Part shown: positions 1,038 to 21,503 of the stretch, piece by piece
How positions within the stretch are numbered: position 1 is the stretch's first letter
Layout of the letters: the number at the start of each line of letters is the position of its first letter
Assembly: GCA_015232555.1 (NCBI GenBank)
Contig: JADFZJ010000040.1
Location: 1-33,376, forward strand
Direction of reading: 5' to 3'
DNA: 33,376 bases
Source: Desulfamplus sp.
Lineage (GTDB): Bacteria; Desulfobacterota; Desulfobacteria; Desulfobacterales; Desulfobacteraceae
Notes under the pieces: model-generated
Told to the model about the DNA's origin: nothing
The model's database searches: none
What the model saw: the letters and a program-made list of their open reading frames with translations, nothing else
Made by a program: the position numbers and the translations under genes

Positions 1038-2324
1038 ATGAATAATTCAAAATCTCAGATATGTTTTGAGGATGCTTTGTCAGTTATACCTGGCGGTGTA
1101 AATTCTCCTGTGAGGGCATGCGGTTCGGTTGGAGGAAAACCTCTTTTTATAGAAAGGGCAGATGGAAGCAAAATATTTGATGTGGATGGTAATAGTTACA
1201 TTGATTATGTGGGTTCATGGGGCCCCATGATTCTTGGTCACCGTCATCCTGCAGTTATAAATGCGTTAGAAAAGGTGCTCAAAAGCGGCACAAGTTTTGG
1301 TGCACCAACTCCGCTTGAGACTGAACTTGCCCATCTTGTGATTGAGTTTGTTCCGTCTGTTGAGATGGTTAGAATGGTCAACTCAGGCACAGAGGCAACT
1401 ATGAGTGCCTTACGTCTTGCTCGAGGTTTTACAGGTCGGGATATTATCATCAAATTTGATGGCTGCTATCATGGACACGCTGATACTCTTCTTGTTGCTG
1501 CTGGTTCAGGGGTTGCCACTCTTGGCATTCCAGGAAGTCTTGGTGTGCCTGAATCTGTTATTAAAAATACACTCTCCATTCAGTATAATAATATCGATGC
1601 TTTCACAGATGTGATGAAAAAAATGGGTGATAAGATAGCTGCCGTTATTGTGGAGCCTGTTGCTGGTAACATGGGTATGGTGACTCCTGTTAAGGGCTTT
1701 CTTGAAACTTTGCGTGAGCTTACCTCAAAGTATGGTACTCTGCTCATATTTGATGAAGTTATGACGGGTTTCAGGGTAGCTAAGGGGTCTGCTCAGGGGC
1801 TTTTTAAAATCACTCCTGATCTTTCCTGTTTTGGAAAAATTATAGGCGGCGGTCTGCCCGTAGGTGCTTATGGCGGTAAACGTGAGATTATGAATCATAT
1901 TGCTCCTGTTGGTCCTGTCTATCAGGCGGGCACTCTTTCTGGCAATCCTCTTGCAATGGCTGCTGGTATTGCTACACTTACAGAGCTGAAAAAACCAGGA
2001 TTTTATGAATTTCTTGAGGCGAAGACGGCAAAACTTATGAATGGTTTTAAACAGGCGGCTCAAACGGCAGGTATTGAGATTACAGCGGGTCATATCGGTT
2101 CAATGGCTGGAATTTTCTTTACATCTGGGTCTGTAAACAACTTTGATGATGCTAAAAAGAGCAACCTTGAGAGATTCGGGATATTTTACAGAACTATGAG
2201 AGAAAAGGGCATCTATCTTGCACCATCTCAATTTGAGGCTTGTTTTGTATCTGCCGCACACAGTGATAATGATATTGAAATAACTATTAGAGCTGCTGAA
2301 GAGGTTATGAAAGGTCTTGCTTGA
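1038..2324 (+). CDS. hemL: Glutamate-1-semialdehyde 2,1-aminomutase
   Basis: PLP-dependent enzyme that converts glutamate-1-semialdehyde to 5-aminolevulinate in the C5 tetrapyrrole pathway, feeding heme, siroheme and corrinoids in the cytosol. The 428 residues equal the usual family length. The N-terminal [11 protein letters not shown] (residues 17-27) is diagnostic of HemL. The cofactor phosphate motif [15 protein letters not shown] starts at 115, the Asp that contacts the PLP ring is in FDEVMTGFR (238-246), and the Schiff-base lysine is Lys267 in [13 protein letters not shown]. The start has an AAGGA site about 10 bp upstream. Only one base separates its stop from mpl, so the two are probably co-transcribed and translationally coupled. 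Confidence 0.97.
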
Positions 2325-2325
2325 T

Positions 2326-3867
2326 ATGGATTTAAAAGGAAATTTCATTCCGACAGATGTGAAGAAAATCCATATAATTGCAGCATGTGGGACAGGTATG
2401 GGGGCACTTGCCTGTATGCTTCAAGATATGGGATTTGAGGTAACTGGTTCAGATCAGAATATATATCCTCCTATGAGCGATTTTTTGATGGAAAAAGGCA
2501 TTCGCCTTTTTAAGGGATTCAGCCCTTCAAACTTTTTAGCTCTCCAATCGCGATTAGAAGGATATATAGAAGAGACAACTCAGCTCAAAAAATTGGAAAC
2601 GCCTGACCTTGTTATTATTGGTAATGCTGTTACATGCAACAATGTGGAGGCTCTTGCGGTTATGGAGCACAATATCCCATACTGCTCCATGCCTCAGGCT
2701 CTGAACCATTTTATTGCAAAAGATAAAAAAATACTTCTTGTAACTGGAACACATGGAAAGACCACAACATCATCAATTCTTGCCCATGTTTTAAATGAAG
2801 CTGGGCTTGATCCCTCTTTTATGATTGGTGGAATTGTCAAGGAGTTTGGCAGCAACTACAGAATTGGCAAAGGCGATTATATTGTTATTGAGGGCGATGA
2901 ATATGATACTGCTTTTTTTGATAAGGGACCTAAATTCATGCACTACACCCCTTATGCTGTGGTTATTACAAGTATTGAATTTGATCACGCCGATATTTTC
3001 AGGGATATTGATCATATAAAAGATGCTTTTAGGCAGTTTGTTGCAAAAATTCCAGCTAAGAGCCTTATTATGGCTTATGGAGAAGATAGCAATGTAAGAG
3101 AAATCCTTGCTTCTGCTGTATGCGATGTTGAATATTATGGGTTTAGGTCTTATGATTGGTCATACAGTAGCCTTGAGGTTAAAAATGGAAATACAAATTT
3201 TTCAGTGAACAGAGCTTTTAAAGATAAGTCCCAAATAGATACTGAAAAACTAAAGAGCGGTAACAATCTCTACTCCTTACAAGCAGAAGATGGAGTCGAA
3301 ATAACAACCCCTCTTATGGGCAGACACAATTTAATCAACACTCTTGCTGTGTTTGGTGTTGCAAAACGGATTGGAATTGCAGATGATGTAATTGTAAAAG
3401 CACTAAAAACTTTCGCAGGAGTAAGAAGAAGACAGGATATAAGAGGAGTTAAAAGGGGCATAACTGTGATGGACGATTTTGCCCACCACCCATCTGCGGT
3501 AAGAGAGACCATTGCAGGGGTTAAACCTTTTTTTAAAGAGGGCAGACTTATTGCTGTTTTTGAACCAAGAACCAACTCAAGCATGAGGGATGTATTTCAA
3601 GATGAATACCCTAAAGCCTTTGATGGTGCTGATATTGTCTGTATAAGAAAACCTTCCATGTTATCCAAAGTTCCAGAATATCAACAGATGAATACTCAAA
3701 AACTTGTTCAAGATATTATAAAACGAGGTATCATGGCACTCTATTTTGATGATACAGAGAGTATTATTGATTTTCTCACTACAGAATCCAGAACTGGTGA
3801 CCTGATTTTAATCATGTCCAATGGAGGATTTGATAATATTCACCAGAGGCTTCTTGAAAAATTGTAG
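2326..3867 (+). CDS. mpl: UDP-N-acetylmuramate:L-alanyl-gamma-D-glutamyl-meso-diaminopimelate ligase (Mpl)
   Basis: Murein-recycling ligase that joins the recovered tripeptide L-Ala-gamma-D-Glu-meso-DAP to UDP-MurNAc in the cytosol, bypassing MurC, MurD and MurE. It has the three-domain Mur ligase layout. The nucleotide-sugar domain has CGTGMG at 21-26 and the Mpl-typical GSDQNIYPPMS. The ATP P-loop is GTHGKTTTS at 141-149, followed by EGDEYDTAFFD. The C-terminal domain has DDFAHHPSAV and EPRTNSSMRDVF. YPPMS and FDKGPKF-type motifs separate it from MurC. At 513 residues it is slightly longer than E. coli Mpl (457). I chose the ATG at 2326 over an in-frame TTG at 2317, because the AAGG at 2311-2314 is too close to the TTG. 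It is one base after hemL. Confidence 0.92.
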   Translation: MDLKGNFIPTDVKKIHIIAACGTGMGALACMLQDMGFEVTGSDQNIYPPMSDFLMEKGIRLFKGFSPSNFLALQSRLEGYIEETTQLKKLETPDLVIIGNAVTCNNVEALAVMEHNIPYCSMPQALNHFIAKDKKILLVTGTHGKTTTSSILAHVLNEAGLDPSFMIGGIVKEFGSNYRIGKGDYIVIEGDEYDTAFFDKGPKFMHYTPYAVVITSIEFDHADIFRDIDHIKDAFRQFVAKIPAKSLIMAYGEDSNVREILASAVCDVEYYGFRSYDWSYSSLEVKNGNTNFSVNRAFKDKSQIDTEKLKSGNNLYSLQAEDGVEITTPLMGRHNLINTLAVFGVAKRIGIADDVIVKALKTFAGVRRRQDIRGVKRGITVMDDFAHHPSAVRETIAGVKPFFKEGRLIAVFEPRTNSSMRDVFQDEYPKAFDGADIVCIRKPSMLSKVPEYQQMNTQKLVQDIIKRGIMALYFDDTESIIDFLTTESRTGDLILIMSNGGFDNIHQRLLEKL

Positions 3868-3930: not shown

Positions 3931-4128
3931 ATGAAAAACAGAGTAGTTATACGATTAATGATGATCGGTGCATTGCACACCTTTCTCTATCTGTGGCTTG
4001 TCCCTTTTGAGATTTATCCCAGATTTGGCAATAATGGATTTATGTTTACTATATTAGTTGCTATAGTAATATCTGTGGCAACTATTGGAACATTGTTTCT
4101 TGGAAAAAAAGATTCTAAAAAATTATGA
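3931..4128 (+). CDS. Small two-helix membrane protein, function unknown
   Basis: The 65-residue product has two hydrophobic segments (about residues 9-26 and 37-58) joined by a short loop with PFEIYPRFGNNG, and a Lys-rich C-terminus. This predicts a hairpin in the inner membrane with both ends in the cytosol. I do not recognise the family. It lies 63 bp after mpl and 21 bp before the hemerythrin-like gene, in line with a place in the same operon. The ribosome binding site is weak (GGATAG-like), which lowers confidence a little; the amino-acid composition still looks like a real membrane protein. Confidence 0.7.
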   Translation: MKNRVVIRLMMIGALHTFLYLWLVPFEIYPRFGNNGFMFTILVAIVISVATIGTLFLGKKDSKKL

Positions 4129-4149: not shown

Positions 4150-4752
4150 ATGATAGAAGAGGATAATATTGAAGATAATGATTTGCAGGATGAGTTTGCA
4201 ACTGATGATAACGAAATAGATGACGGCTATGAATCAGACGAGTATGATGCTGATAATGAAGCAGATTATTGTTTAAAAGATAAAGAAGATAATAAGGCTT
4301 TAAATAGCCAGTCAAATAGCGGATATAAAATTGAATGGGAGCAGTCATTAAGCGTTGATATCCCTGAAATTGATGAACTCCAGAAAAGAGTATTTATGAT
4401 GTTAAACGGGCTTATCAATCAGCATGAGTTAGATGAAGAAATGTTAAAAGATGCTGCTGCAATGGTTGCAGAACTTACCGAATACAGCAGATATTATTTC
4501 AGTAAGGAAGAGGAGTATCTTAGAAGATGCGGTTATCCTGATATTGACTGTCACTCCAAAGAACATCGGCAGTTTATAAAAAATACTATTAATTTGAGAA
4601 GACAGGTCTCTGAGGATAAAAAAAATTTATCATATCAGACTGTGAGCAATCTGAAAGATTGGCTGGTCAGCCATATTTCAGGCACTGATCATGTTTATGT
4701 TCCATTTGTGAGAATTAACAACTACGTGGAAGAGTGCAGATTAAAACGATAA
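4150..4752 (+). CDS. Hemerythrin-like protein with an acidic N-terminal extension and two substituted iron ligands
   Basis: Residues 1-55 are a very acidic, probably unstructured extension. Residues 60-195 match bacteriohemerythrin: the W63 start, IDELQKRVF, YYFSKEEEYL, H135xxxH139 and WLVSHISGTD. Against the seven canonical diiron ligands, Glu120 (Glu58 in sipunculid hemerythrin), His135 (His73), His139 (His77), His175 (His101) and Asp180 (Asp106) are kept at exact spacing. The two terminal histidines of the second iron are replaced, by Gln78 (for His25) and Tyr116 (for His54). That iron is the one that binds O2 in hemerythrin. The protein may thus bind a single iron or no O2, and could act as a sensor or scaffold. 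A clear AGGAG site precedes the ATG. It lies 58 bp before der. Confidence 0.85.
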   Translation: MIEEDNIEDNDLQDEFATDDNEIDDGYESDEYDADNEADYCLKDKEDNKALNSQSNSGYKIEWEQSLSVDIPEIDELQKRVFMMLNGLINQHELDEEMLKDAAAMVAELTEYSRYYFSKEEEYLRRCGYPDIDCHSKEHRQFIKNTINLRRQVSEDKKNLSYQTVSNLKDWLVSHISGTDHVYVPFVRINNYVEECRLKR

Positions 4753-8109: not shown

Positions 8110-10737
8110 ATGATAGAAGATAAAAACGTGACCAGTATTGAGAAGGAGATGACACACTCCTATCTTGAGTATGCAATGAGTGTTATCATCGGCAGAGCCT
8201 TGCCTGATGTAAGGGATGGATTAAAACCAGTTCACCGCAGGGCACTTTTTGCCATGAGGCAACTTCGTAATGACTGGAATAAACCCTACAAAAAATCTGC
8301 CCGTGTAGTTGGTGATGTTATTGGTAAATATCATCCTCACGGAGACACAGCCGTATATGACACCATTGTCCGTATGGCTCAGGACTTTTCCCTTCGTTAT
8401 ACCCTTGTGGATGGTCAAGGTAACTTTGGTTCAGTAGATGGTGACTCTCCTGCAGCTATGAGATACACAGAGATAAGGATGAGAAAACTTGCCCACCTTA
8501 TGCTCTCTGATATTGAAAAAGAAACTGTTGACTGGGTTCCTAACTATGATGAGACGATGGAAGAACCATCTGTATTTCCAACAAAATTTCCTGCACTTTT
8601 AGTCAACGGTTCGTCTGGCATTGCAGTTGGAATGACCACAAATATTCCTCCTCACAACATTGGTGAAGTTTCAGACGCCATAAGTGCTCTTCTGGACAAT
8701 CCTGACATGGAAATACCTGAACTTATGCAGTACATTCCAGGACCTGATTTTCCAACTGCTGGTATAATTCATGGTAAAAAGGGAATTTACGATGCCTACA
8801 CTACTGGACGCGGTGTTATAATCGTCAGAGCAAAGATGGAGGTTGAGATAAACAGCAAAACCCAAAGAGAGACCATTGTTGTTACAGAGCTTCCATATCA
8901 GGTGAATAAGGCAAAGTTAGTTGAAAAGATTGACGAGCTGATGCGGGAAAAGGTTATTGAAGGGGCAGCATTTGTTCGTGATGAATCTGACCGTGACGGA
9001 ATGAGAATAGCTATTGGATTAAAGCGGGATCAGATTCCTGATGTGGTGATAAACCAGCTTTATAAACATACCAACATGCAGTCAAGTTTTGGCATTATAT
9101 TTCTTGCTGTAGTTAATAAACGTCCCCAACTGTTCAATATCAAACAGATACTTGAACAGTTTATTAATCACCGAAAAGATGTAATTACCAGAAGAACCAT
9201 ATTTGAGCTGAAAAAAGCAGAAGAGCGGGCACATATTTTAGATGGGCTTAGAAAAGCGTTGGATCATTTAGATGCTGTTGTAGCACTTATTAGAGCATCA
9301 GCTTCACCTGAAGATGCAAAAAATGGATTGATGAATCCAGAGCAGTTCAATTTTTCAGAATCTCAAGCTCAAGCTATTTTAGATATGAGACTCCAAAAAT
9401 TGACAGGACTTGAGAGAGGTAAAATTGATGAGGAGTATTTTGTCCTGATAAAAGATATTGAGTGGTTCACAAAGATTCTTGCAAGCGATGAGGTTGTAAA
9501 GGGTATCATAAGAGAAGAGATATCTGAGATGAAAGCTGAATTTGCCGACCCTCGCCGCACCGAGATTGTTGAGCATTCGGGGGATATAAATATTGAAGAT
9601 TTGATTGCTGAAGAGGATATGGTGGTTACAATCTCAAGAACTGGATATATCAAGAGAAATCCTGTAACCCTTTATGAGATTCAGCGGCGAGGCGGTAAAG
9701 GTAAAACTGCAATGGGGACAAAAGATGATGACTTTGTTGAACATCTATTTGTCGCATCAACTCATCACACATTTTTGTTTATCACAAATTTTGGAAAGGT
9801 CTATCAAAAGAAAGTTTATGATATTCCTATGGCAGGACGTACAAGTCTTGGTAAGGCGATTGTTAATCTGCTCAATTTTGATGAAGGTGAAAAACTTGCA
9901 ACTGTCTTGACTGTTCCTCAGTTTGAAGAGGGAAAATATGTTATCATGGCAACCCAAAAAGGGCTTGTTAAGAAAACTGCTCTTATGTCTTACTCCCGAC
10001 CCCGTACAGATGGATTGATCGGCATAAAGTTAGTAGAGGGTGATGAGCTTATTTCAGCACGTATCACTAACGGAACAATGGATATTTTCCTTGGCTCAAA
10101 ATCTGGAAAGGTTATCCGTTTTAGTGAAGAAGAGGTTCGTTCAGTTGGAAGAGGCTCTATGGGCGTGATTGGTATGCGGATAAAAGAGAATGATCAAGTT
10201 GTTGGAATGGAGGCATTAAGCCATGGTCAGACTCTTCTTACTGTTACTGAAAATGGATATGGAAAACGCACCAAAATTGAAGAATACAATGCTCAAGGTC
10301 GTGGAGGACAAGGAGTATTTTCGATCAAAACATCTAAACGCAACGGCATGATGGTATCGCTCCTGCTTGTTGAAGATAGTGATGAGTTGATGCTTGTTAC
10401 AGACAAAGGCAAACTCATCAGAATACATGTTGATGGAATTTCCACAATAAGCAGAGCTACTCAAGGTGTCCGTCTTATCAATCTTTCTGATGAAGAAAAA
10501 CTTATAGCTGTGGCAAGACTTCCAGAGTCTGAGGATAAACAGCCGAAATGTTCAGAAGAAGATGGTCAAAATAGTGAACAAGATTGTTTTGAAGATTCTG
10601 ATGATTATGATTCTCAAGAAGATTTATCTGCATCTGAAGAGGACGATTTGGAAAAAGACTATGGTGATCCAGAAGAGAGCCAAGATAATGACGATGAAAG
10701 TTATGATGATGTAGAAGAAGATGATGATGATAAATGA
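8110..10737 (+). CDS. gyrA: DNA gyrase subunit A
   Basis: A subunit of the ATP-dependent type II topoisomerase that introduces negative supercoils. The breakage-reunion domain has RALPDVRDGLKPVHRR (29-44), the quinolone-determining segment HGDTAVYDTIV (77-87) and the catalytic Tyr119 in AAMRYTE. The GyrA box QRRGGKG is at 525-531 and opens the DNA-wrapping beta-pinwheel; this marks it as GyrA and not ParC. The E. coli Ser83 position is Thr80, and Asp87 is kept as Asp84. The last ~60 residues (from about 812) are strongly acidic, with runs such as EEDDDDK. AAAGGAA precedes the ATG. Its TGA overlaps the radC ATG by 4 bp (ATGA), showing translational coupling. At 875 residues the length equals that of E. 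coli GyrA. Confidence 0.97.
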   Translation: MIEDKNVTSIEKEMTHSYLEYAMSVIIGRALPDVRDGLKPVHRRALFAMRQLRNDWNKPYKKSARVVGDVIGKYHPHGDTAVYDTIVRMAQDFSLRYTLVDGQGNFGSVDGDSPAAMRYTEIRMRKLAHLMLSDIEKETVDWVPNYDETMEEPSVFPTKFPALLVNGSSGIAVGMTTNIPPHNIGEVSDAISALLDNPDMEIPELMQYIPGPDFPTAGIIHGKKGIYDAYTTGRGVIIVRAKMEVEINSKTQRETIVVTELPYQVNKAKLVEKIDELMREKVIEGAAFVRDESDRDGMRIAIGLKRDQIPDVVINQLYKHTNMQSSFGIIFLAVVNKRPQLFNIKQILEQFINHRKDVITRRTIFELKKAEERAHILDGLRKALDHLDAVVALIRASASPEDAKNGLMNPEQFNFSESQAQAILDMRLQKLTGLERGKIDEEYFVLIKDIEWFTKILASDEVVKGIIREEISEMKAEFADPRRTEIVEHSGDINIEDLIAEEDMVVTISRTGYIKRNPVTLYEIQRRGGKGKTAMGTKDDDFVEHLFVASTHHTFLFITNFGKVYQKKVYDIPMAGRTSLGKAIVNLLNFDEGEKLATVLTVPQFEEGKYVIMATQKGLVKKTALMSYSRPRTDGLIGIKLVEGDELISARITNGTMDIFLGSKSGKVIRFSEEEVRSVGRGSMGVIGMRIKENDQVVGMEALSHGQTLLTVTENGYGKRTKIEEYNAQGRGGQGVFSIKTSKRNGMMVSLLLVEDSDELMLVTDKGKLIRIHVDGISTISRATQGVRLINLSDEEKLIAVARLPESEDKQPKCSEEDGQNSEQDCFEDSDDYDSQEDLSASEEDDLEKDYGDPEESQDNDDESYDDVEEDDDDK

Positions 10738-13699: not shown

Positions 13700-15379
13700 T
13701 CATTTCTTAGGCAGAAGACTCGCAATGGTCTCTTGAAGCTCTTCGTTGGAAAAAGGTTTATGAAGAACCTTGTTTATACCTGCATTACCAAGAAGGCTTT
13801 TACTCATTTTTAAATTTTCATCAGATTCAACAAAATCGCTCTGAGTTGTTATCATTACAATTGGAAGTTCGGCTGATGAATATTTTTTTCTGACTGCCTG
13901 AGCAAGCTGAATTCCATTTATTTTTGGCATATTAAGATCAGTTATAACAATGTCTGGTTTTGATGTATATATCTGCCGTATAGCCTCTTCTGGCAACATA
14001 AACGATGTTGCATTATATCCAAAACCAGTGAGTTTATTTTCATATAGTTTAAGCATCATTTTAGAGTCATCTACAACATAAATTTGTGCAATATCAGATG
14101 AGGATTCCTCTTTTTCTTTAGGCAGCAATTGAACAATCTTGTCTGCAAGAGCTTGATAGTTTTTCTTTCTTAATATACCAAGAAAATGCTCTCTCGTCTT
14201 TTTATCTGCCTTATTGGTTACATGTTTAACAGACAACTTGATAAATGACTCTTCTTGAAGCAAAAAATTAAAAATATTGTCAGACTCTGAATCTATAAGA
14301 GCACCAACTACATTTAAAGCATCTTCGTTTCCTTCCCTTACAATATTTTTAAGACCCGCAACAAGCACTTTTGATATATTTTTGTCCATTGCCCGAGCCG
14401 CACTAATACGCACTGCTTCAACTGGATCCTGAATACCCGCTGCCAGTACAATTGCAGATTTGGTAGATGGTATTCTCTCCATGCTCTCGTAAGCTGCTTG
14501 ACGAATATTAGGGTCTTCTGGTTTTGTCTTCATAATATCAAAAATCACAGGTAGAGCTTTTTGATCTTTTATATATCCAAGAGTGGTAATGAGATGAACC
14601 ATAAAATCTGTATTTGCATTTGAAGTTGCAGCAGTAAGTATCGGTACAGCTTTGCCGCCAATTTCTATAAGCATATCAATTGCTGCATCTCTGATATGTG
14701 TATTTTTAGATTGTAGAAGAGATGCGAGCTGATTGAGTGCATATTGATCCTGTATCTCACCAAGAGCTTTTATTTTCAACGAATCGGAATCGTCCTGACC
14801 AGTAATTGATGAGACAAGGTAGTCAACTGCCTCTTTAGTGCCAATTTGAGCGATTGCAGAAACAGCAGTATTTTTAATATCTGGATCATCATAACTTTCA
14901 CTCAACTTTATAAGAGATAGAAGAGATGAAGGCAGACGAAGTGAGCCAAGCGATATTGCAGTCTGGACAAGAATTTCAGGGTCTTTGGATGTCTGAAGAA
15001 TTTTTTCAAGAACAGAAGCAGCTTCAACAATAAGAAAATCACCTGCCACTTTAATGTAGATAATACGATTTTTTTTGTCGTCTTGTATTATATAATTAAT
15101 AATGAGGTCAGTATTGCCGTAAGCCTTATCAAGGATCAGCTCATACAGGCTCTCATTTATTTCAGGATTGTGTATCTGAAGGGTAGTCAGATATTCAAGC
15201 AGTGGGAATACAAGTTTTTCTGATGCTTTAGATAGCTCATGAAGTGCTCTTTTCTGAACATTTACATTCATTTCCTGATTTGTGATGAACTGTAAAAGAG
15301 CCTTTGCCTTGACTATATCTCCCTCTTTAAGGCAGAAGATAAGCTCTTCTAAAAACTCTTTTGGGTTAATGGCTGCCAT
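13700..15379 (-). CDS. HEAT-repeat protein with a C-terminal response-regulator receiver domain
   Basis: A 559-residue protein. Residues ~1-420 are alpha-helical repeats of the HEAT type, with recurring units such as IKNTAVSAIAQIG, IRDAAIDMLIEIG and IRQAAYESMERI that end in D-x-x-I/V-R. Residues ~432-559 form a complete CheY-like receiver: acidic pair Asp437-Asp438, phospho-acceptor Asp481 in VITDLNMP, Thr511 and Lys541 in HKPF. No DNA-binding or enzymatic output is seen. The gene follows cheR by 170 bp on the same strand, so the receiver is the likely target of CheA phosphoryl transfer, with the HEAT scaffold as the effector or docking surface. That is inference. The two-part design (scaffold first, receiver last) is uncommon. 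Confidence 0.85.
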   Translation of the reverse strand: MAAINPKEFLEELIFCLKEGDIVKAKALLQFITNQEMNVNVQKRALHELSKASEKLVFPLLEYLTTLQIHNPEINESLYELILDKAYGNTDLIINYIIQDDKKNRIIYIKVAGDFLIVEAASVLEKILQTSKDPEILVQTAISLGSLRLPSSLLSLIKLSESYDDPDIKNTAVSAIAQIGTKEAVDYLVSSITGQDDSDSLKIKALGEIQDQYALNQLASLLQSKNTHIRDAAIDMLIEIGGKAVPILTAATSNANTDFMVHLITTLGYIKDQKALPVIFDIMKTKPEDPNIRQAAYESMERIPSTKSAIVLAAGIQDPVEAVRISAARAMDKNISKVLVAGLKNIVREGNEDALNVVGALIDSESDNIFNFLLQEESFIKLSVKHVTNKADKKTREHFLGILRKKNYQALADKIVQLLPKEKEESSSDIAQIYVVDDSKMMLKLYENKLTGFGYNATSFMLPEEAIRQIYTSKPDIVITDLNMPKINGIQLAQAVRKKYSSAELPIVMITTQSDFVESDENLKMSKSLLGNAGINKVLHKPFSNEELQETIASLLPKK

Positions 15380-15549
15380 TATGCACTCTCATATAATTTT
15401 ATAATTATTGGATTGTTTTTTAGCTTTTTATAGTTGGGTCATTTTGAGGATTACTTATGGTTATGGATAACTTATTTATATTATTGAAGTTTATGTGGTA
15501 TGATAAGTGTGAAACTAATCTTGATCAATTGTTGGAATCGTTGTCTGTG

Positions 15550-16386
15550 CTAACTCAACTGATAAAAAACAGAGTTAAGATATCTTTTAGAAACAAACAG
15601 ATCTGAATTATTTGCAAGGGATTCTGTTGCACCAATGATAAGATAGCCGTCTGGCTCAAGAACTTTAGCAATATTAGCGTATATTTTACGCCTGTCTTCT
15701 TCGGTGAAGTAGATCATAACATTGCGGCATAAAATAATATCAAATTTTCCTAATCCCACAAACGGCTTCATAAGATTCATCTTCTGAAACTGCACCATAG
15801 CCCTTATCTCATCTTTGATTTTCCAGTAATCTCCATCTTGTGTGAAATATTTATTAAGCCGTTTTGGGTCCAACCCCCTTGCCACCTCAAATTTATTGTA
15901 TCTGCCGTAGCTTGCCTGAGCTATAGCCGCATCTGAAATGTCTGTACCGAGAAGTTTAATCTGATATTTTTGAGGGGTAATACCAATCTCATCAAGAGCC
16001 ATTGCAATACTGTAAATCTCCTGTCCCGTAGAGTTTGCAGCACTCCAAAGGCGGATAGCAGGCTTTAATAGAGTTCTGCTCTTTGAGCGTCTGTCAATGA
16101 GATCGGGGATTATTTTGTGCTGTATAAGGGTAAAAGGCGATTTGTCTCTGAAAAAATAGGTTTCGTTTGTAGATATGGCATCAATTATTTTTTTTTCAAT
16201 CTCTTTTTTAGGGTCATATTTTGCCTTTCTGTGAAGATCAGAATATGATGTGCAACTCAATTGCTCCATTAATGGATTCAATCTTGTTTCAATAAGATAT
16301 TCTTTACCCTTGGAAAGTGCTATTCCAGAGATTTCCATGATATATTTAGATAATATATCAAACTCGGCTGGTGTGATTTTGATCAT
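15550..16386 (-). CDS. cheR: Chemotaxis protein methyltransferase CheR
   Basis: S-adenosylmethionine-dependent methyltransferase that methylates glutamates in chemoreceptors. The 278 residues contain the N-terminal alpha-helical domain and TNETYFFRD (73-81). The SAM motif is LWSAANSTGQEIYSIAM (113-129), with Asn-Ser-Thr-Gly-Gln-Glu in place of the enteric C-S-T-G-E-E, and CRNVMIYF at 220-227 closes the pocket. Seventeen bp separate it from cheB upstream. There is no TPR extension. Its presence implies methylated receptors elsewhere in the genome, since none lies in the window. Confidence 0.95.
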   Translation of the reverse strand: MIKITPAEFDILSKYIMEISGIALSKGKEYLIETRLNPLMEQLSCTSYSDLHRKAKYDPKKEIEKKIIDAISTNETYFFRDKSPFTLIQHKIIPDLIDRRSKSRTLLKPAIRLWSAANSTGQEIYSIAMALDEIGITPQKYQIKLLGTDISDAAIAQASYGRYNKFEVARGLDPKRLNKYFTQDGDYWKIKDEIRAMVQFQKMNLMKPFVGLGKFDIILCRNVMIYFTEEDRRKIYANIAKVLEPDGYLIIGATESLANNSDLFVSKRYLNSVFYQLS

Positions 16387-16402
16387 TTTATTTAGCTGTT
16401 TC

Positions 16403-17599
16403 TTAGATTACAGTTTTAGTTATCTCTTCAGCAATTTGATTGAGAGGTGCCACCACATCTGCCATGCCTGACTCTATTGGTTCCTTTGGCATTCCATATA
16501 CAGTGCAGGTATCCTTGTCCTGAGCAATAATCACACCGCCATTTCTTTTAATATGCTCAAGACCTCTTGTACCATCTGAACCCATTCCTGTCATAATAAC
16601 CGCAGTGGATCTTCCCACATAATGTTCTGCAATGGATCTGAAAAGGTAGTCAACTGACGGTTTGCAGCTATTTTCAGGCGGATCATCTGTAATTTTTATA
16701 TTGCGAGTTCGTCCATCTGCACCAGCTACGATTTTCATCTGCATCCCTCCCGGGGCAATAAAAACTGTATTGGGACGTAACGGCTCACCGTTTTCAGCCT
16801 CTTTAACTTCAAGAGCACACTTTGCATTAAGGCTCTTTGCAAGAGATTTAGTAAAAACTGGGGGCATGTGCTGAACTATCAATACAGGCACATTTAGTCT
16901 TGTAGTCAGCATAGGCATCATAACTGCTAATGCCTTGGGACCGCCCGTTGAAATTCCGATTCCTATGATTGATGACGGAGTCTGCCGCCGTATAATAGTT
17001 GATGGTCTAATGATATCACTCTTAATGTCTCCTCTCGATTTCTGTAAGTTAGCTTTAGATGAAGATTTAGCAGCAGACAGATTAGAAATGGAGTGTGGAG
17101 TGGTAGACGATATGATGCTTGAGCCGGCGGAAGAAGAGGACGCAGCGTGATGTAAATCAGGCGGAGATATTTTTAATGTGCTTCTAAACCCTTTCTGACG
17201 TTTAAAAGCATTGATAATAGGAACAAGGGAAGCACGCACTTTTGCCATGTTTTCAGCCATTGTACCACTATCTGGTTTTGATATAAAATCAAAAGCCCCA
17301 AGTTCAAGGGCTTTGATGGTCATATCACTTCCCTTTTGGGTAAGTGTGCTTAACATAACGGCTGAGGTTGGAATAGAGTTGTCTTTAATATACTCTAACA
17401 CTTCGATACCATTCATTTCGGGCATCTCTATGTCTAAGGTCACAATATCTGGTTTTAATGAGGCTATTCTTGCAACAGCTGTCTTACCATTGCTGGCTGC
17501 TCCTACAAGTTCCACATCTGGTAACTCTTTAAGAACGTCACTTACAATCTTACGATAGACTATAGTATCATCAACTACAAGAACTTTAATTTTGCCCAT
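16403..17599 (-). CDS. cheB: Chemotaxis response regulator protein-glutamate methylesterase CheB
   Basis: Receiver domain (1-125; Asp10, Asp11, phospho-acceptor Asp56 in VTLDIEMPEMNG, Lys108) followed by a Ser/Lys-rich linker (about 145-205) and the methylesterase domain (208-395). The catalytic triad is Ser217 (GISTGGPKAL), His244 (VQHMPP) and Asp342 (MTGMGSDGTRG). It removes methyl groups from, and deamidates, chemoreceptors when phosphorylated by CheA. At 398 residues it exceeds E. coli CheB (349), mostly through the longer low-complexity linker. It lies between cheW (40 bp) and cheR (16 bp). Confidence 0.96.
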   Translation of the reverse strand: MGKIKVLVVDDTIVYRKIVSDVLKELPDVELVGAASNGKTAVARIASLKPDIVTLDIEMPEMNGIEVLEYIKDNSIPTSAVMLSTLTQKGSDMTIKALELGAFDFISKPDSGTMAENMAKVRASLVPIINAFKRQKGFRSTLKISPPDLHHAASSSSAGSSIISSTTPHSISNLSAAKSSSKANLQKSRGDIKSDIIRPSTIIRRQTPSSIIGIGISTGGPKALAVMMPMLTTRLNVPVLIVQHMPPVFTKSLAKSLNAKCALEVKEAENGEPLRPNTVFIAPGGMQMKIVAGADGRTRNIKITDDPPENSCKPSVDYLFRSIAEHYVGRSTAVIMTGMGSDGTRGLEHIKRNGGVIIAQDKDTCTVYGMPKEPIESGMADVVAPLNQIAEEITKTVI

Positions 17600-17639
17600 T
17601 TATTGTTTTAAGACCCCTTATATTCTACTAAAAATATCC

Positions 17640-18101
17640 TTAGTCCTTCAAAACTTCCTCAATATCTAAAATACCAATCAGAGATGTTTTTGTTTTCATA
17701 ACACCTTTAAAAAATCTTCCTTTCAATCCGCTGATATTGGATGGGGCGGGTTCAATTTTATCTTTTTCCGCTGTAACTACATCGCTTATTGCATCTACCA
17801 TAAGACCAATGTGCTCATCTTGTGAACGGACAATAATATTTCTGTTACGTTTATCTTTCTCAATTTCTGAAAGTCCAAGTTTTTTTCCAAGATCGAGTAT
17901 TGTTACAATACGACCACGCAGGTTGAGTACACCAACGACATAATCAGGTGATTGAGGTACTGTTGTAACCTCAAAATGTTTGTTAATTTCCTGTATGCTT
18001 AATATATCAATACCACAAAGAGCCTTACCAACATAAAAAGTTGCAAGCTCTGTATTATTTTCTACAGTTGTTCCTGTATTTGTAACTGTTTTTGAAGCCA
18101 T
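17640..18101 (-). CDS. cheW: Chemotaxis coupling protein CheW
   Basis: 153-residue single-domain adaptor that joins CheA to chemoreceptors. The fold signature is visible: LATFYVGKALCGIDILSIQEI, VVGVLNLRGRIVTILDL (55-71), an internal RNIIVRSQDEHIGLMVDAISDV and the final SLIGILDIEEVL. The Asn-Leu-Arg-Gly at 60-63 matches the conserved receptor and kinase contact. It lies 27 bp downstream of cheA and 40 bp upstream of cheB. Confidence 0.95.
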   Translation of the reverse strand: MASKTVTNTGTTVENNTELATFYVGKALCGIDILSIQEINKHFEVTTVPQSPDYVVGVLNLRGRIVTILDLGKKLGLSEIEKDKRNRNIIVRSQDEHIGLMVDAISDVVTAEKDKIEPAPSNISGLKGRFFKGVMKTKTSLIGILDIEEVLKD

Positions 18102-18128
18102 ATTGAATTTTCCTCATCAAAGCAGAAT

Positions 18129-21100
18129 TTAAAGGTTCATATATCTCCTGATAAGTTTCATCAGATTTTCACGGTCAAGTTTTATCTCATATTCATCAAT
18201 ACCTACCTCTTTTCCTCTCTTTACATGGGCATCGCTTGCAAGAGAGGTTAGGGCAATAACCTTAAAGTGTGACAGTACAGGATCCTTTTTTATTCTTGAT
18301 GTCAGTTCAAAACCGTCCATATTTGGCATTTCAAGATCAGTAACTACAAGATCAACTTCATTGTGCCTCTCTTTTAGAAGATTCCATGCAATCTCCCCAT
18401 CTTCAGCCGTTATTACACTATAGCCTTCATCTGTCATAAATCCCTTAACCTGATTTCTGAAAAAAGCTGAATCCTCTGCAAACAGAATAACCTTCTGCCC
18501 AGCCTCTTCCATCTCTGCTGCAGCAAGTTTCTCATCTTCAAACCATGATGGATTGAGGTTCTTAACAACGTCAAAAATATCAACAAGCAGTGTAGTATGA
18601 CCATCTATTATCATGGAACCGTTAATACCCGTCTGTTTTAAGGTTGAATCGTCAATATCAAGAGAAATTTCAACCGCATCTACCGGCGGTGTTACCATTA
18701 AACCAAGTTCTCTGCCTTTAACGGTAAAAACAATAATCTCCTGTTGCTCAGTCTGGGGAAGTTTAGAGACATTAGCAACTTGCGAAAGTTCATACAGAGG
18801 CAATGCCCCTCCTCTGTATTGTACCACTTTTTTACCGCTTACATTTTCAATAGATGATACTGGAATTCGTTCAATACGTTCTACAAGGTTAAGAGGAGCA
18901 GCACAATGTTCAGGTCCATTTTTAAACAGCAGAAGTGATGCTTTATCTCTTGCTTTTTCTCTTGCCTCTTCAGCAGCTCTTGCAGCTTTTGCCGTTCTTT
19001 CTGCCTCTGCCATGGTGGTTAATTCTGCCATTTGGGCAAGATTGGAAACATCAAGAATCAGTGCGACTTTTCCGTCTCCCATGATGGTAGCACCTGCATA
19101 TCCGCTGCACTTTTTAAGGTGTCTTCCAAGCGGTTTTACAACTATCTCTTCTGAGTCTTTCAATTCATCTACTACAAGACCATATTTATGTGTACCAGCC
19201 GATACTACTGCAATGTTTATTGCACTGGCAGCTCTATATCTTCTATCTGTTCCCGTTCGCTCATATGCAACTGTAGTGTTGACAGATTCACGTTTGCCGT
19301 TTTGATCAGTTTTATTTGAACGGCGGTCAGCAATGCTCTGTCTTTGATCTGGATACTCAATTCCATCGTCAGGGTGGACAAATGTCTTCTTAATCCCAAG
19401 CACTTGTGCAAGGTTAAGAAGCGGCAGAAGATTGCCTCTAAGTCTTACTACATCCGCATCTCCAACTTTCTCAATCCTCTCTTTTACCTGAGAAGCAGGG
19501 ATTCTGAGCAGTTCATCTAAATTTACCTGCGGTATGGCATATTTTTCATTGCCGACAGATATGATCTGACTTGGTATAATAGCAAGAGTCAATGGCAGCT
19601 TAATCTGAATATCGGTTCCTCTTCCTGTTTTTGACTCAATCTCAATGATTCCGCCTAATTTAGCAAGATTTGTAACTACAACATCCATTCCTACCCCTCT
19701 ACCAGAGACATCTGTAACTTTTTCTGCTGTTGAAAAACCTGGCAGCAGAATAAGATCAATTCTCTCTTTGGCAGAAAGCTCAGATACCTGCTGCTCACTC
19801 ATCAGCCCCTTTTTAACAGCAACCGCAGCAATTTTATCAGGATCAAGACCTTTACCATCGTCTGAGATCATAATATTGACTTGCCCTGCATCATGGAAAG
19901 CTTTGAGAACTATTTTTCCCGTGGCTTTTTTTCCAGCAGCTTCTCTTATATTGGGAAGTTCAATGCCATGATCAACAGAGTTGCGAATCAAATGGGTCAA
20001 AGGGTCATTAATAGCTTCAATAATGGTTTTATCAAGCTCAACCTCTTTGCCTTCAATTATAAGATCAATAGATTTGCCAAGCTCCTGCGAGAGATCTCGC
20101 ACAACCCTTGTGAATTTGTTGAATACATTGGCAATCGGCTGCATACGTGTACGCATGATAGCTTCCTGAAGCTCTGATGTAATCATGTCAATACGCTGGC
20201 TTGAAAGCTCAGTTGCTTTAGCATTAGATGAGTTTATTCCTTGAATTAACTGATTCCTGCTAAGTACAAGCTCCCCTGCAAGGTTCATCAAAGTGTCAAG
20301 CAGATTAACATTGACCCTCAGTGACCCCATTGGTTTCGACATATTCATTGCATTGCCAGAATCACTCTCGTTCGCATTAATATTGTCGTTGATATCATTA
20401 TCTGATGCAATTTCCTGTTTTTTATGAATCGTAACTGCTGGTTTTGCTTTTATGGTTGGCGTTTGCTGAACATCAAAGTCAACCTTTGGGGTAGTTTTAT
20501 GTTGAGAAGGAGCAGCCGCCTCGTTTTCAGAAGATGCAATTACATTAGATGAAGCATCAGCTTTTTTGGAAGGGACTTTTGTCTGAATCGCAGCATTTTT
20601 TACATCAAATTCATTAACTTGTTGTTTAGTAGAAGTTTTTTCTACTACTTGTGTCTTAACAATAGATTCAACCTCAACATCCCTTGATGGCATGGCTGGA
20701 ACCGTATCAATATTAATAGTTGTATTAGATATAGACAGCATCTCATCAGTAACTACATGGATGTAATCCTCTTCAAGATCAAATAGAGTAGTTGCCATAT
20801 CAGGTTCTAATATTGATGAGAATAGTATCTGAAATGGAATTCTCGTTGACATAAGACCATCATTCAAAGTTCCAACAGAATTAAAGTCTATCCGTGAATC
20901 AATAATGGTACCAGTTTTTTCAAGTGATTCAAGAAGTTCAATCGGATTTCTGCTCTTACGCTGAATATCTTTTATAAGGTCATATTCAACAAGATAGATG
21001 TATCTGCCGTCATCTTTTGCCTGTTCAATACTGTATTGAGATACTGCTGGGAATACTCTGCCATCTGCAAGGGTAAGATCAAGAATAGTAGTTACAGTAT

Positions 21101-21503
21101 CCTGTTTCTCTTCTGATAAAGATGATTTTGTGATATTAGCAAGTGCTAATATGTACTCAGAGACATCTTCTTCATTGCTTGTCTGAATATCGTTCATCAG
21201 ATTTTCGAGCTTATCAAAACCCTTTAGCAGCACACTGATTCTGTTTGGTGTTGGAACAAGCTCTTTATTCCTTATGAGATCAAGGACATTCTCAAGGCTG
21301 TGAGCAAGCCCCTTTATGGTTGTAAGCCCCATAAATCCAGCACCACCTTTAATTGAGTGGGCAGCTCTGAAAACATTGTTTACGATATCAATATCAATAT
21401 TTTCTCCATCACCTTCTATGGTCAACAGATCACTTTCAATATCTGAAAGATGTTCAAGTGATTCTTCAATGTACATCTGTAGAATTTCATCGTCTTCAAT
21501 CAT
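18129..21503 (-). CDS. cheA: Hybrid chemotaxis histidine kinase CheA with two CheW-like domains and a receiver
   Basis: 1124 residues, far longer than E. coli CheA (654). The order is: HPt domain with His49 in AAHSIKGGAGFMG; a P2-like domain (about 138-255); a low-complexity linker (270-390); dimerisation (P3, 393-465); and the kinase with N-box DPLTHLIRNSVDHGIE (500-515), G1 SDDGKGL (547-553) and G2 GRGVGMDVV (601-609). Next is a first CheW-like domain (640-825) with a charged ~50-residue insertion near 708-757, then an Ala/Glu/Arg-rich helical linker (828-855) and a second CheW-like domain (about 856-985). The protein ends with a receiver (1003-1124; Glu1010, Asp1011, phospho-acceptor Asp1056, Lys1108). 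CheA-receiver fusions such as Myxococcus FrzE drive non-flagellar outputs. An AGGAG site precedes the ATG. Confidence 0.95.
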   Translation of the reverse strand: MIEDDEILQMYIEESLEHLSDIESDLLTIEGDGENIDIDIVNNVFRAAHSIKGGAGFMGLTTIKGLAHSLENVLDLIRNKELVPTPNRISVLLKGFDKLENLMNDIQTSNEEDVSEYILALANITKSSLSEEKQDTVTTILDLTLADGRVFPAVSQYSIEQAKDDGRYIYLVEYDLIKDIQRKSRNPIELLESLEKTGTIIDSRIDFNSVGTLNDGLMSTRIPFQILFSSILEPDMATTLFDLEEDYIHVVTDEMLSISNTTINIDTVPAMPSRDVEVESIVKTQVVEKTSTKQQVNEFDVKNAAIQTKVPSKKADASSNVIASSENEAAAPSQHKTTPKVDFDVQQTPTIKAKPAVTIHKKQEIASDNDINDNINANESDSGNAMNMSKPMGSLRVNVNLLDTLMNLAGELVLSRNQLIQGINSSNAKATELSSQRIDMITSELQEAIMRTRMQPIANVFNKFTRVVRDLSQELGKSIDLIIEGKEVELDKTIIEAINDPLTHLIRNSVDHGIELPNIREAAGKKATGKIVLKAFHDAGQVNIMISDDGKGLDPDKIAAVAVKKGLMSEQQVSELSAKERIDLILLPGFSTAEKVTDVSGRGVGMDVVVTNLAKLGGIIEIESKTGRGTDIQIKLPLTLAIIPSQIISVGNEKYAIPQVNLDELLRIPASQVKERIEKVGDADVVRLRGNLLPLLNLAQVLGIKKTFVHPDDGIEYPDQRQSIADRRSNKTDQNGKRESVNTTVAYERTGTDRRYRAASAINIAVVSAGTHKYGLVVDELKDSEEIVVKPLGRHLKKCSGYAGATIMGDGKVALILDVSNLAQMAELTTMAEAERTAKAARAAEEAREKARDKASLLLFKNGPEHCAAPLNLVERIERIPVSSIENVSGKKVVQYRGGALPLYELSQVANVSKLPQTEQQEIIVFTVKGRELGLMVTPPVDAVEISLDIDDSTLKQTGINGSMIIDGHTTLLVDIFDVVKNLNPSWFEDEKLAAAEMEEAGQKVILFAEDSAFFRNQVKGFMTDEGYSVITAEDGEIAWNLLKERHNEVDLVVTDLEMPNMDGFELTSRIKKDPVLSHFKVIALTSLASDAHVKRGKEVGIDEYEIKLDRENLMKLIRRYMNL

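Follow-up and report, generated by a model that had tools for sequence, protein, structure and literature searches.

A hemerythrin clade of Desulfobacterales lacking histidines of the O2-binding iron, with a small membrane protein frequently encoded beside it in Desulfobacteraceae

The 200-residue hemerythrin encoded in a 33,376-nucleotide stretch of Desulfamplus sp. DNA (hereafter the window) lacks both histidines that would hold the O2-binding iron, Fe2, whereas the three histidines of Fe1 and the two bridging carboxylates are all kept. The same asymmetry recurs in its relatives across the Desulfobacterales. We read these proteins, with a probability of about 0.55, as a clade of one-metal, Fe1-only hemerythrins that would not bind O2 in the usual way and that, in Desulfobacteraceae, probably sit at the membrane side together with a two-helix protein.

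Fold and ligand positions of the window protein

The features discussed below are listed here by window coordinates. We take His25 and His54 to be the sipunculid numbering of the two Fe2 histidine positions.

1038-2324, +: hemL, glutamate-1-semialdehyde aminomutase, first gene of the conserved cluster (profile match, neighbourhood)
2317-3867, +: Mur ligase, Mpl/MurC-like, in the conserved cluster, start uncertain (382 bits, just below the mpl cut-off of 388.7)
3931-4128, +: predicted two-helix membrane protein, 65 residues, between ligase and hemerythrin (ORF, neighbourhood, prediction)
4150-4752, +: variant hemerythrin gene, 200 residues (ORF list, profile matches, ligand alignment, predicted model)
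4150-4323, +: acidic N-terminal tail, residues 1-58 (only in Desulfamplus among 32 translated loci)
4327-4749, +: four-helix hemerythrin core, residues 60-200 (model, fold matches)
4381-4383, +: Gln78, in place of the Fe2 ligand His25 (alignment)
4495-4497, +: Tyr116, in place of the Fe2 ligand His54 (alignment)
4507-4509, +: Glu120, equivalent of the bridging Glu58, kept (alignment)
4552-4566, +: His135 and His139, HxxxH, Fe1 ligands, kept (alignment)
4597-4602, +: Arg150-Arg151, clade signature at the end of helix C (Arg150 in 97 of 97 clade sequences, both in 95 of 97)
4672-4689, +: His175 (Fe1) and Asp180 (bridging), HxxxxD, kept (alignment)
4711-4713, +: Arg188, in the helix D extension (invariant in 46 thinned clade rows)

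The product of the ORF at 4150-4752 is a member of the hemerythrin superfamily by sequence and predicted fold, as a preliminary description of this DNA had claimed. It scores 47.8 bits against PF01814 (Pfam Hemerythrin), above the curated cut-off of 25.3, and 104.5 bits against NF033749 (NCBIfam bacteriohemerythrin), above the cut-off of 84. The AlphaFold2 model, which covers residues 60-200 and was built from an input alignment of 11 rows, has a mean pLDDT of 82.5. Structural comparison matched this predicted core to DcrH-Hr (PDB 2avk), with a Z of 16.6 and an rmsd of 1.9 Å over 129 residues (Foldseek TM 0.81), and by this match the model displays the up-down four-helix bundle of the PF01814 superfamily.

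The long N-terminal tail, previously described as unusual, is indeed strongly acidic, with 23 Asp/Glu within residues 1-59; its scope is narrow, as it occurs only in the Desulfamplus loci (9 of 32 translated loci), and by this comparison it is genus-specific. A gyrase-A-like ORF, recognized by eye at 8110-10737 (+) of the window, ends in a long acidic tail resembling the acidic head of the hemerythrin, and low-complexity acidic stretches of this kind may recur across this genome. RNA families searched over the whole window at the gathering threshold gave two tRNAs only, neither near the hemerythrin gene.

Alignment of the seven ligand columns reads Q78, Y116, E120, H135, H139, H175 and D180 in the window protein, exactly the five ligands at canonical spacing and the two replacements that had been described earlier. 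The attribution of the two lost histidines to the O2-binding iron agrees with the available text of PMC9388753, in which Fe2 is held by two histidines and Fe1 by three. The ligand motif of an O2-binding diiron bacteriohemerythrin is thus absent, with Q78 and Y116 at the Fe2 histidine positions. All four paralogues found in the same genome (L001, L003, L004 and L005) keep the seven ligands, HHEHHHD; for L004 a pairwise alignment gave QHEHHHD through a gap, and the profile alignment gives HHEHHHD.

Ligand pattern, selection and descent across the clade

In an initial set of 32 sequences (the window protein and 31 homologues), position 78 is Gln in 30 and Arg in two, position 116 is Tyr or Phe, and E-H-H-H-D is intact. 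A broader set, from which four of 254 rows with more than 40 gap columns had been removed, holds 162 distinct core sequences: 97 clade members, 63 with HHEHHHD, one with HHEQHHD and one cut at the first position. Clade membership was defined by a score above 128 against the A3 profile, itself built from variants, together with a ligand string other than HHEHHHD; the highest-scoring HHEHHHD sequence reaches 127.1 and the lowest clade member 133.6. The Fe1 and bridging set E-H-H-H-D is kept in all 97 distinct Desulfobacterales clade sequences, down to 24% identity to the window protein, and every one of the 97 lacks histidine at one or both of the His25 and His54 columns. The residue pairs at positions 78/116 are QY (53), QF (13), NH (6), RF (6), RL (3), KH (3), LY (2) and MH (2), with KY, QR, YH, HL, HV, QH, RH, TY and a shortened -Y occurring once each.

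Within Desulfobacteraceae, 75 distinct sequences have Gln (65) or Arg (9) at position 78, one being cut off before it, and Tyr (53), Phe (19) or Leu (3) at position 116, so that an Fe2 histidine occurs at either position in none of them. Outside this family, His54 alone is kept in several families (for example NHEHHHD and KHEHHHD). The reverse state, with His25 present and His54 lost, occurs in two clade members, so the loss of His25 was not one simple event. Homologues with ordinary histidine at both positions, which would have suggested drift, were not found in the clade; on these counts the Gln78/Tyr116 state is a family-wide trait, not drift.

The clade carries a second signature. Arg150-Arg151 is present in 95 of the 97 members (the others have Arg-Lys and Arg-Gly, one each), compared with none of the 63 HHEHHHD sequences, a set made up of the best matches to variant-derived profiles plus the window's own genome rather than a random sample of hemerythrins. 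The Arg-Arg motif thus accompanies the loss of Fe2 ligands. When the clade is thinned at 80% identity to 46 rows, ten of 136 columns are invariant (F117, E120, E121, P130, H135, H139, R150, H175, D180 and R188), and all five kept ligands are among them (chance 7e-7), while nine residue types occur at position 78 and six at position 116. Such an asymmetry would be expected if Fe1 is used and Fe2 is not.

A scan for replacement ligands considered columns with at least 95% Asp/Glu/His/Cys/Tyr. The clade has gained just one such column, residue 155, which lies at the distal end of helix C; residues 62, 73 and 111 are enriched in Desulfobacteraceae, and 73 and 111 are judged from helical phase to face outward. 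With nearness assessed in the same manner, this 95% scan found no new conserved acidic, His or Cys column near positions 78 and 116, and a replacement ligand elsewhere in the protein was rejected on its outcome. A shifted histidine (HQ for QH at positions 77-78) was likewise rejected, since position 77 varies among the 46 rows (Leu 13, His 11, Cys 4, Lys 3 and others).

Two individual loci deserve a separate record. In L165 (genome G635), two otherwise canonical hemerythrins are adjacent, and one of them is HHEQHHD, with His73, the first Fe1 histidine, changed to Gln; here the opposite half of the site is altered. In another locus, a rubredoxin-like ORF (L207:79-288; CxxC by eye) lies directly upstream of an HLEHHHD variant hemerythrin.

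The variant hemerythrin is found in 74 of 86 Desulfobacteraceae genomes (40 of 42 of good quality) and in 12 of 14 genera, mostly as a single copy, and has apparently been inherited vertically in this family. For tree building, rows were thinned at 80% identity to 106, and the alignment was stripped of its C-terminal part and of the columns for the two lost ligands and the Arg-Arg motif. The Desulfobacteraceae rows form one group (29 rows, SH-aLRT 100). The free quick tree is poorly resolved and needs three label changes, or two without the HHEQHHD sequence; when the 46 variant rows were forced to be monophyletic, with the HHEQHHD row not treated as a variant, the resulting tree improved on the free one by 17 log units (AU p 0.784). 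The tree is compatible with one origin of the variants, without proving a single clade. In a phylum-wide sample of 297 genomes, clade-type scores occur only in the window's order among the loci fetched, matches below these being judged by score alone.

Gene neighbourhood and the small membrane protein

Gene calling on 31 loci, of which some share a genome, recovered hemL at 28, the Mur ligase at 29 and the hemerythrin at 30 of them, usually on one strand and in that order. A role in the heme or siroheme pathway, which the hemL neighbour might invite, was set aside because the loci read outside Desulfobacteraceae have different neighbours, and no one conserved neighbour for the entire clade was found among the loci read.

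Several other gene associations were noted. In the f18/f21 loci (L198:4970-5419; L196, L199, L205 and L210), a gene for a protein family of about 150 residues is divergent beside the variant hemerythrin; the one member searched gave no match in Pfam or NCBIfam. In the f35 loci (L203, L204, L206 and L208), two conserved genes lie directly upstream of the variant hemerythrin, with one weak RdgC match (E 1.9e-7, L206 member). The window itself holds, at 13700-21503 (-), a chemotaxis-type cluster recognized by eye, with response regulator, methyltransferase, methylesterase and kinase-like ORFs.

The 65-residue protein encoded just upstream of the hemerythrin gave no match when the window's copy was searched against Pfam and NCBIfam. 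Neither this neighbour nor the Arg-Arg motif nor the family-wide spread of the ligand replacements figures in the preliminary description. Its family, aligned over 21 rows, has as invariants an Ile-Gly pair, His16, Leu-Tyr20, two prolines and two glycines. The model has two predicted helices (mean pLDDT 78, pTM 0.47), and Lys/Arg residues at both ends suggest that both termini are cytoplasmic. Of 47 distinct loci whose hemerythrin has Gln/Arg at position 78 and Tyr/Phe at position 116, 40 have this protein upstream; among the seven loci without it, one has too short a flank and one comes from outside Desulfobacteraceae.

Counted by genome, 69 of 86 Desulfobacteraceae genomes have the membrane protein, of which 67 have the hemerythrin and two lack a full one, the gene being split across frames in one (G645) and cut by the contig end in the other (G337). 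Seven have the hemerythrin and no detectable membrane protein, and ten have neither. In a sample of 291 genomes from the order, the membrane protein occurs in 26, and all 26 also have the variant hemerythrin; of the 38 variant-hemerythrin genomes, as read from the stronger matches, 12 are without it. The 7 of 74 family genomes and 12 of 38 order-sample genomes that have the variant alone indicate that the membrane partner is not obligatory. The nesting of 26 within 38 of 291 genomes has a hypergeometric probability of 3e-28 with kinship ignored; by family it is roughly four of four among 10 of 73 (2e-4), the number 73 being inferred from group codes. In the phylum sample, the membrane protein occurs in one genome of 297, the window's own.

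The co-occurrence makes it likely that the hemerythrin and the 65-residue protein are partners, as far as gene content can indicate. That they are not, and that the association reflects shared ancestry and a shared operon, is a minority view of real weight. The genes are adjacent in Desulfobacteraceae, where a joint loss may be a single deletion; only four families of the order sample, possibly of shared ancestry, have the membrane protein; and the hemerythrin stands alone in the seven Desulfobacteraceae genomes mentioned above. Against this view, the genes still co-occur in three other families in which they are not adjacent: in 10 of the 26 genomes (families f10, f18 and f47) the membrane protein is on another contig or megabases away from the hemerythrin, such unlinked positions being other contigs or distant sites in draft assemblies for most of the ten. 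Of the eight unlinked membrane-protein loci that were fetched, none has a neighbour matching hemL or the Mur ligase of the window. In G025, hemL and the ligase are retained, yet neither the hemerythrin nor the membrane protein was found. Finally, in two genomes (G315 and G637, the record of L045), a stop-free frame runs from the membrane protein into the hemerythrin, but in G315 a long A run at the joint and a ribosome-binding-like GGAGAG ahead of the inner ATG make separate translation or a run-length error possible. A different joined frame occurs in G651 (L264:3972-5822, -), where 617 open codons run from the Mur ligase into the variant hemerythrin and the membrane protein was not detected.

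What the site may do

We propose that the Fe2 half of the site, with His25 and His54 and the O2-binding function, was given up, whereas the Fe1 half has been kept under strict selection. The three histidines and the two carboxylates that once bridged the irons would then form a His3-Glu-Asp site for a single metal ion, which is probably iron. Loss of Fe2 may leave an open or solvent-filled, exchangeable position in place of the bridging oxygen, so that the centre could change its redox state or bind a small molecule, with no O2 stored as hydroperoxide on Fe2. Usual O2 binding would be lost because the end-on hydroperoxide, the defining feature of oxy-hemerythrin, has nowhere to bind when Fe2 is missing. 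In Desulfobacteraceae the protein would probably act on the inner side of the cytoplasmic membrane, together with the two-helix protein usually encoded upstream, perhaps as a constitutive sensor of redox state, iron or gas, or as a redox mediator, rather than as an oxygen carrier. The near-constant and mostly single-copy distribution is easier to reconcile with sensing or redox work near the membrane than with oxygen supply, the candidate signals being redox state, iron, NO and superoxide.

The preliminary description had left several fates open for the site. Its view that the protein would not be a normal O2 carrier is strengthened by the absence of Fe2 histidines from the 75 distinct family sequences (one cut before position 78), and a single iron is favoured by the unvaried Fe1 and bridging set of the 97 clade sequences. 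Tyrosinate ligation as a conserved mechanism was rejected: Phe or Leu takes the place of Tyr116 in 22 of the 75 family sequences, and metals are not usually bound by Phe, Leu or Arg. As precedent for unequal irons, one hemerythrin-like subdomain of plant BRUTUS releases one iron only, a differential lability that its authors relate to hexa- versus penta-coordination, and the two irons of hemerythrin-like sites can thus behave differently (PMC12022348, available text).

Persistence of a dinuclear site appears unlikely. Fe2 would then be bound by Glu120 and Asp180 together with solvent, possibly also by Tyr116 or Gln78, and the result would be a modified diiron protein that activates O2 or peroxide. 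Both bridging carboxylates are invariant and many members outside Desulfobacteraceae keep His54, as this arrangement would want; Arg at 78 and Phe or Leu at 116 within the family, none a usual ligand, and the lack of a new conserved acidic, His or Cys column near these positions by helical phase speak against it. For clade members outside Desulfobacteraceae, a weak second metal bound through carboxylates, one His or water is possible, given their kept bridging carboxylates and often kept His54.

That the site holds Zn or Mn instead of iron, in a structural or regulatory role without redox chemistry, is quite unlikely. Three histidines plus carboxylates make a general metal site. The E159L variant of hemerythrin-like YtfE took up manganese in crystals (PMC9268430, available text), but iron is the metal of the canonical family, whose exact spacing the five residues keep. 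A metal-free scaffold with relic ligands is very improbable: Trichomonas RIC2, which is hemerythrin-like, apparently cannot assemble a diiron centre (PMC9268430, available text), but decay would be expected to reach all seven ligand positions, and here exactly the five Fe1 and bridging ligands are invariant, even at 24% identity, while the other two vary. The preferred reading remains the one-metal, Fe1-only site.

Among known systems, the three-His-carboxylate, one-metal site of Fe/Mn superoxide dismutase resembles the proposed site in its ligands only, the fold being unrelated to hemerythrin. Bacteriohemerythrins (NF033749/TIGR02481; DcrH-Hr 2avk and bacterial hemerythrin 4xpx) share the sequence family, the four-helix fold and Glu58/His73/His77/His101/Asp106 with the clade, which differs from them by the loss of His25 and/or His54, the Arg-Arg motif, a C-terminal helix extension and, in most Desulfobacteraceae loci, the small membrane protein nearby. 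The hemerythrin-like domains of P1B-5-ATPases, themselves cytoplasmic and membrane-linked, also have an altered ligand motif; there, unlike in the clade, it is the Fe1 half that is altered, HxE standing in for HxxxH, and His25/His54 are kept (PMC9388753, available text). Their pattern, H-HxxxE-HxE-HxxxxD within a P-type ATPase, is not that of the window protein, a single-domain ORF with H135/H139 as HxxxH. The iron-sensing domains of BRUTUS and FBXL5 have likewise turned the hemerythrin fold away from O2 carriage, with one iron that can be labile, but they are parts of eukaryotic E3 ligases with diiron centres (PMC12022348, same text). RIC/YtfE proteins are four-helix and hemerythrin-like; their diiron site, with two histidines per iron and two bridging glutamates (PMC9268430, same text), differs from the E-HxxxH-HxxxxD of the window protein.

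Variation at iron-coordinating residues was counted in 2016 in 106 single-domain hemerythrins, delta-proteobacteria among them, with the variants uncharacterised; in the available part of that paper (PMC4919030) it was not resolved into a clade. The available part of PMC12607906 holds nothing on missing hemerythrin ligands. A literature search returned no title or abstract opening describing the clade among the matches listed, a weak absence since subscription papers lay mostly outside its scope.

If the Fe1-only reading is true, the clade would represent a natural stepwise conversion of a diiron O2 site into a one-metal site. Members with His54 kept and His25 gone would be possible living intermediates, in which the contribution of each iron becomes directly testable. 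For annotation there is a hazard, as the window protein passes the bacteriohemerythrin cut-off although it lacks the histidine ligands of the O2-binding iron. An uncharacterised family of small membrane proteins, with an invariant His and Tyr in the first helix, is tied to a gene present in 74 of 86 sampled Desulfobacteraceae genomes. Tentatively, at odds below even, a mononuclear His3-Glu-Asp iron protein paired with this two-helix protein may form a new membrane-bound redox or iron-sensing unit, which, if true, would be near-universal in an anaerobic bacterial family.
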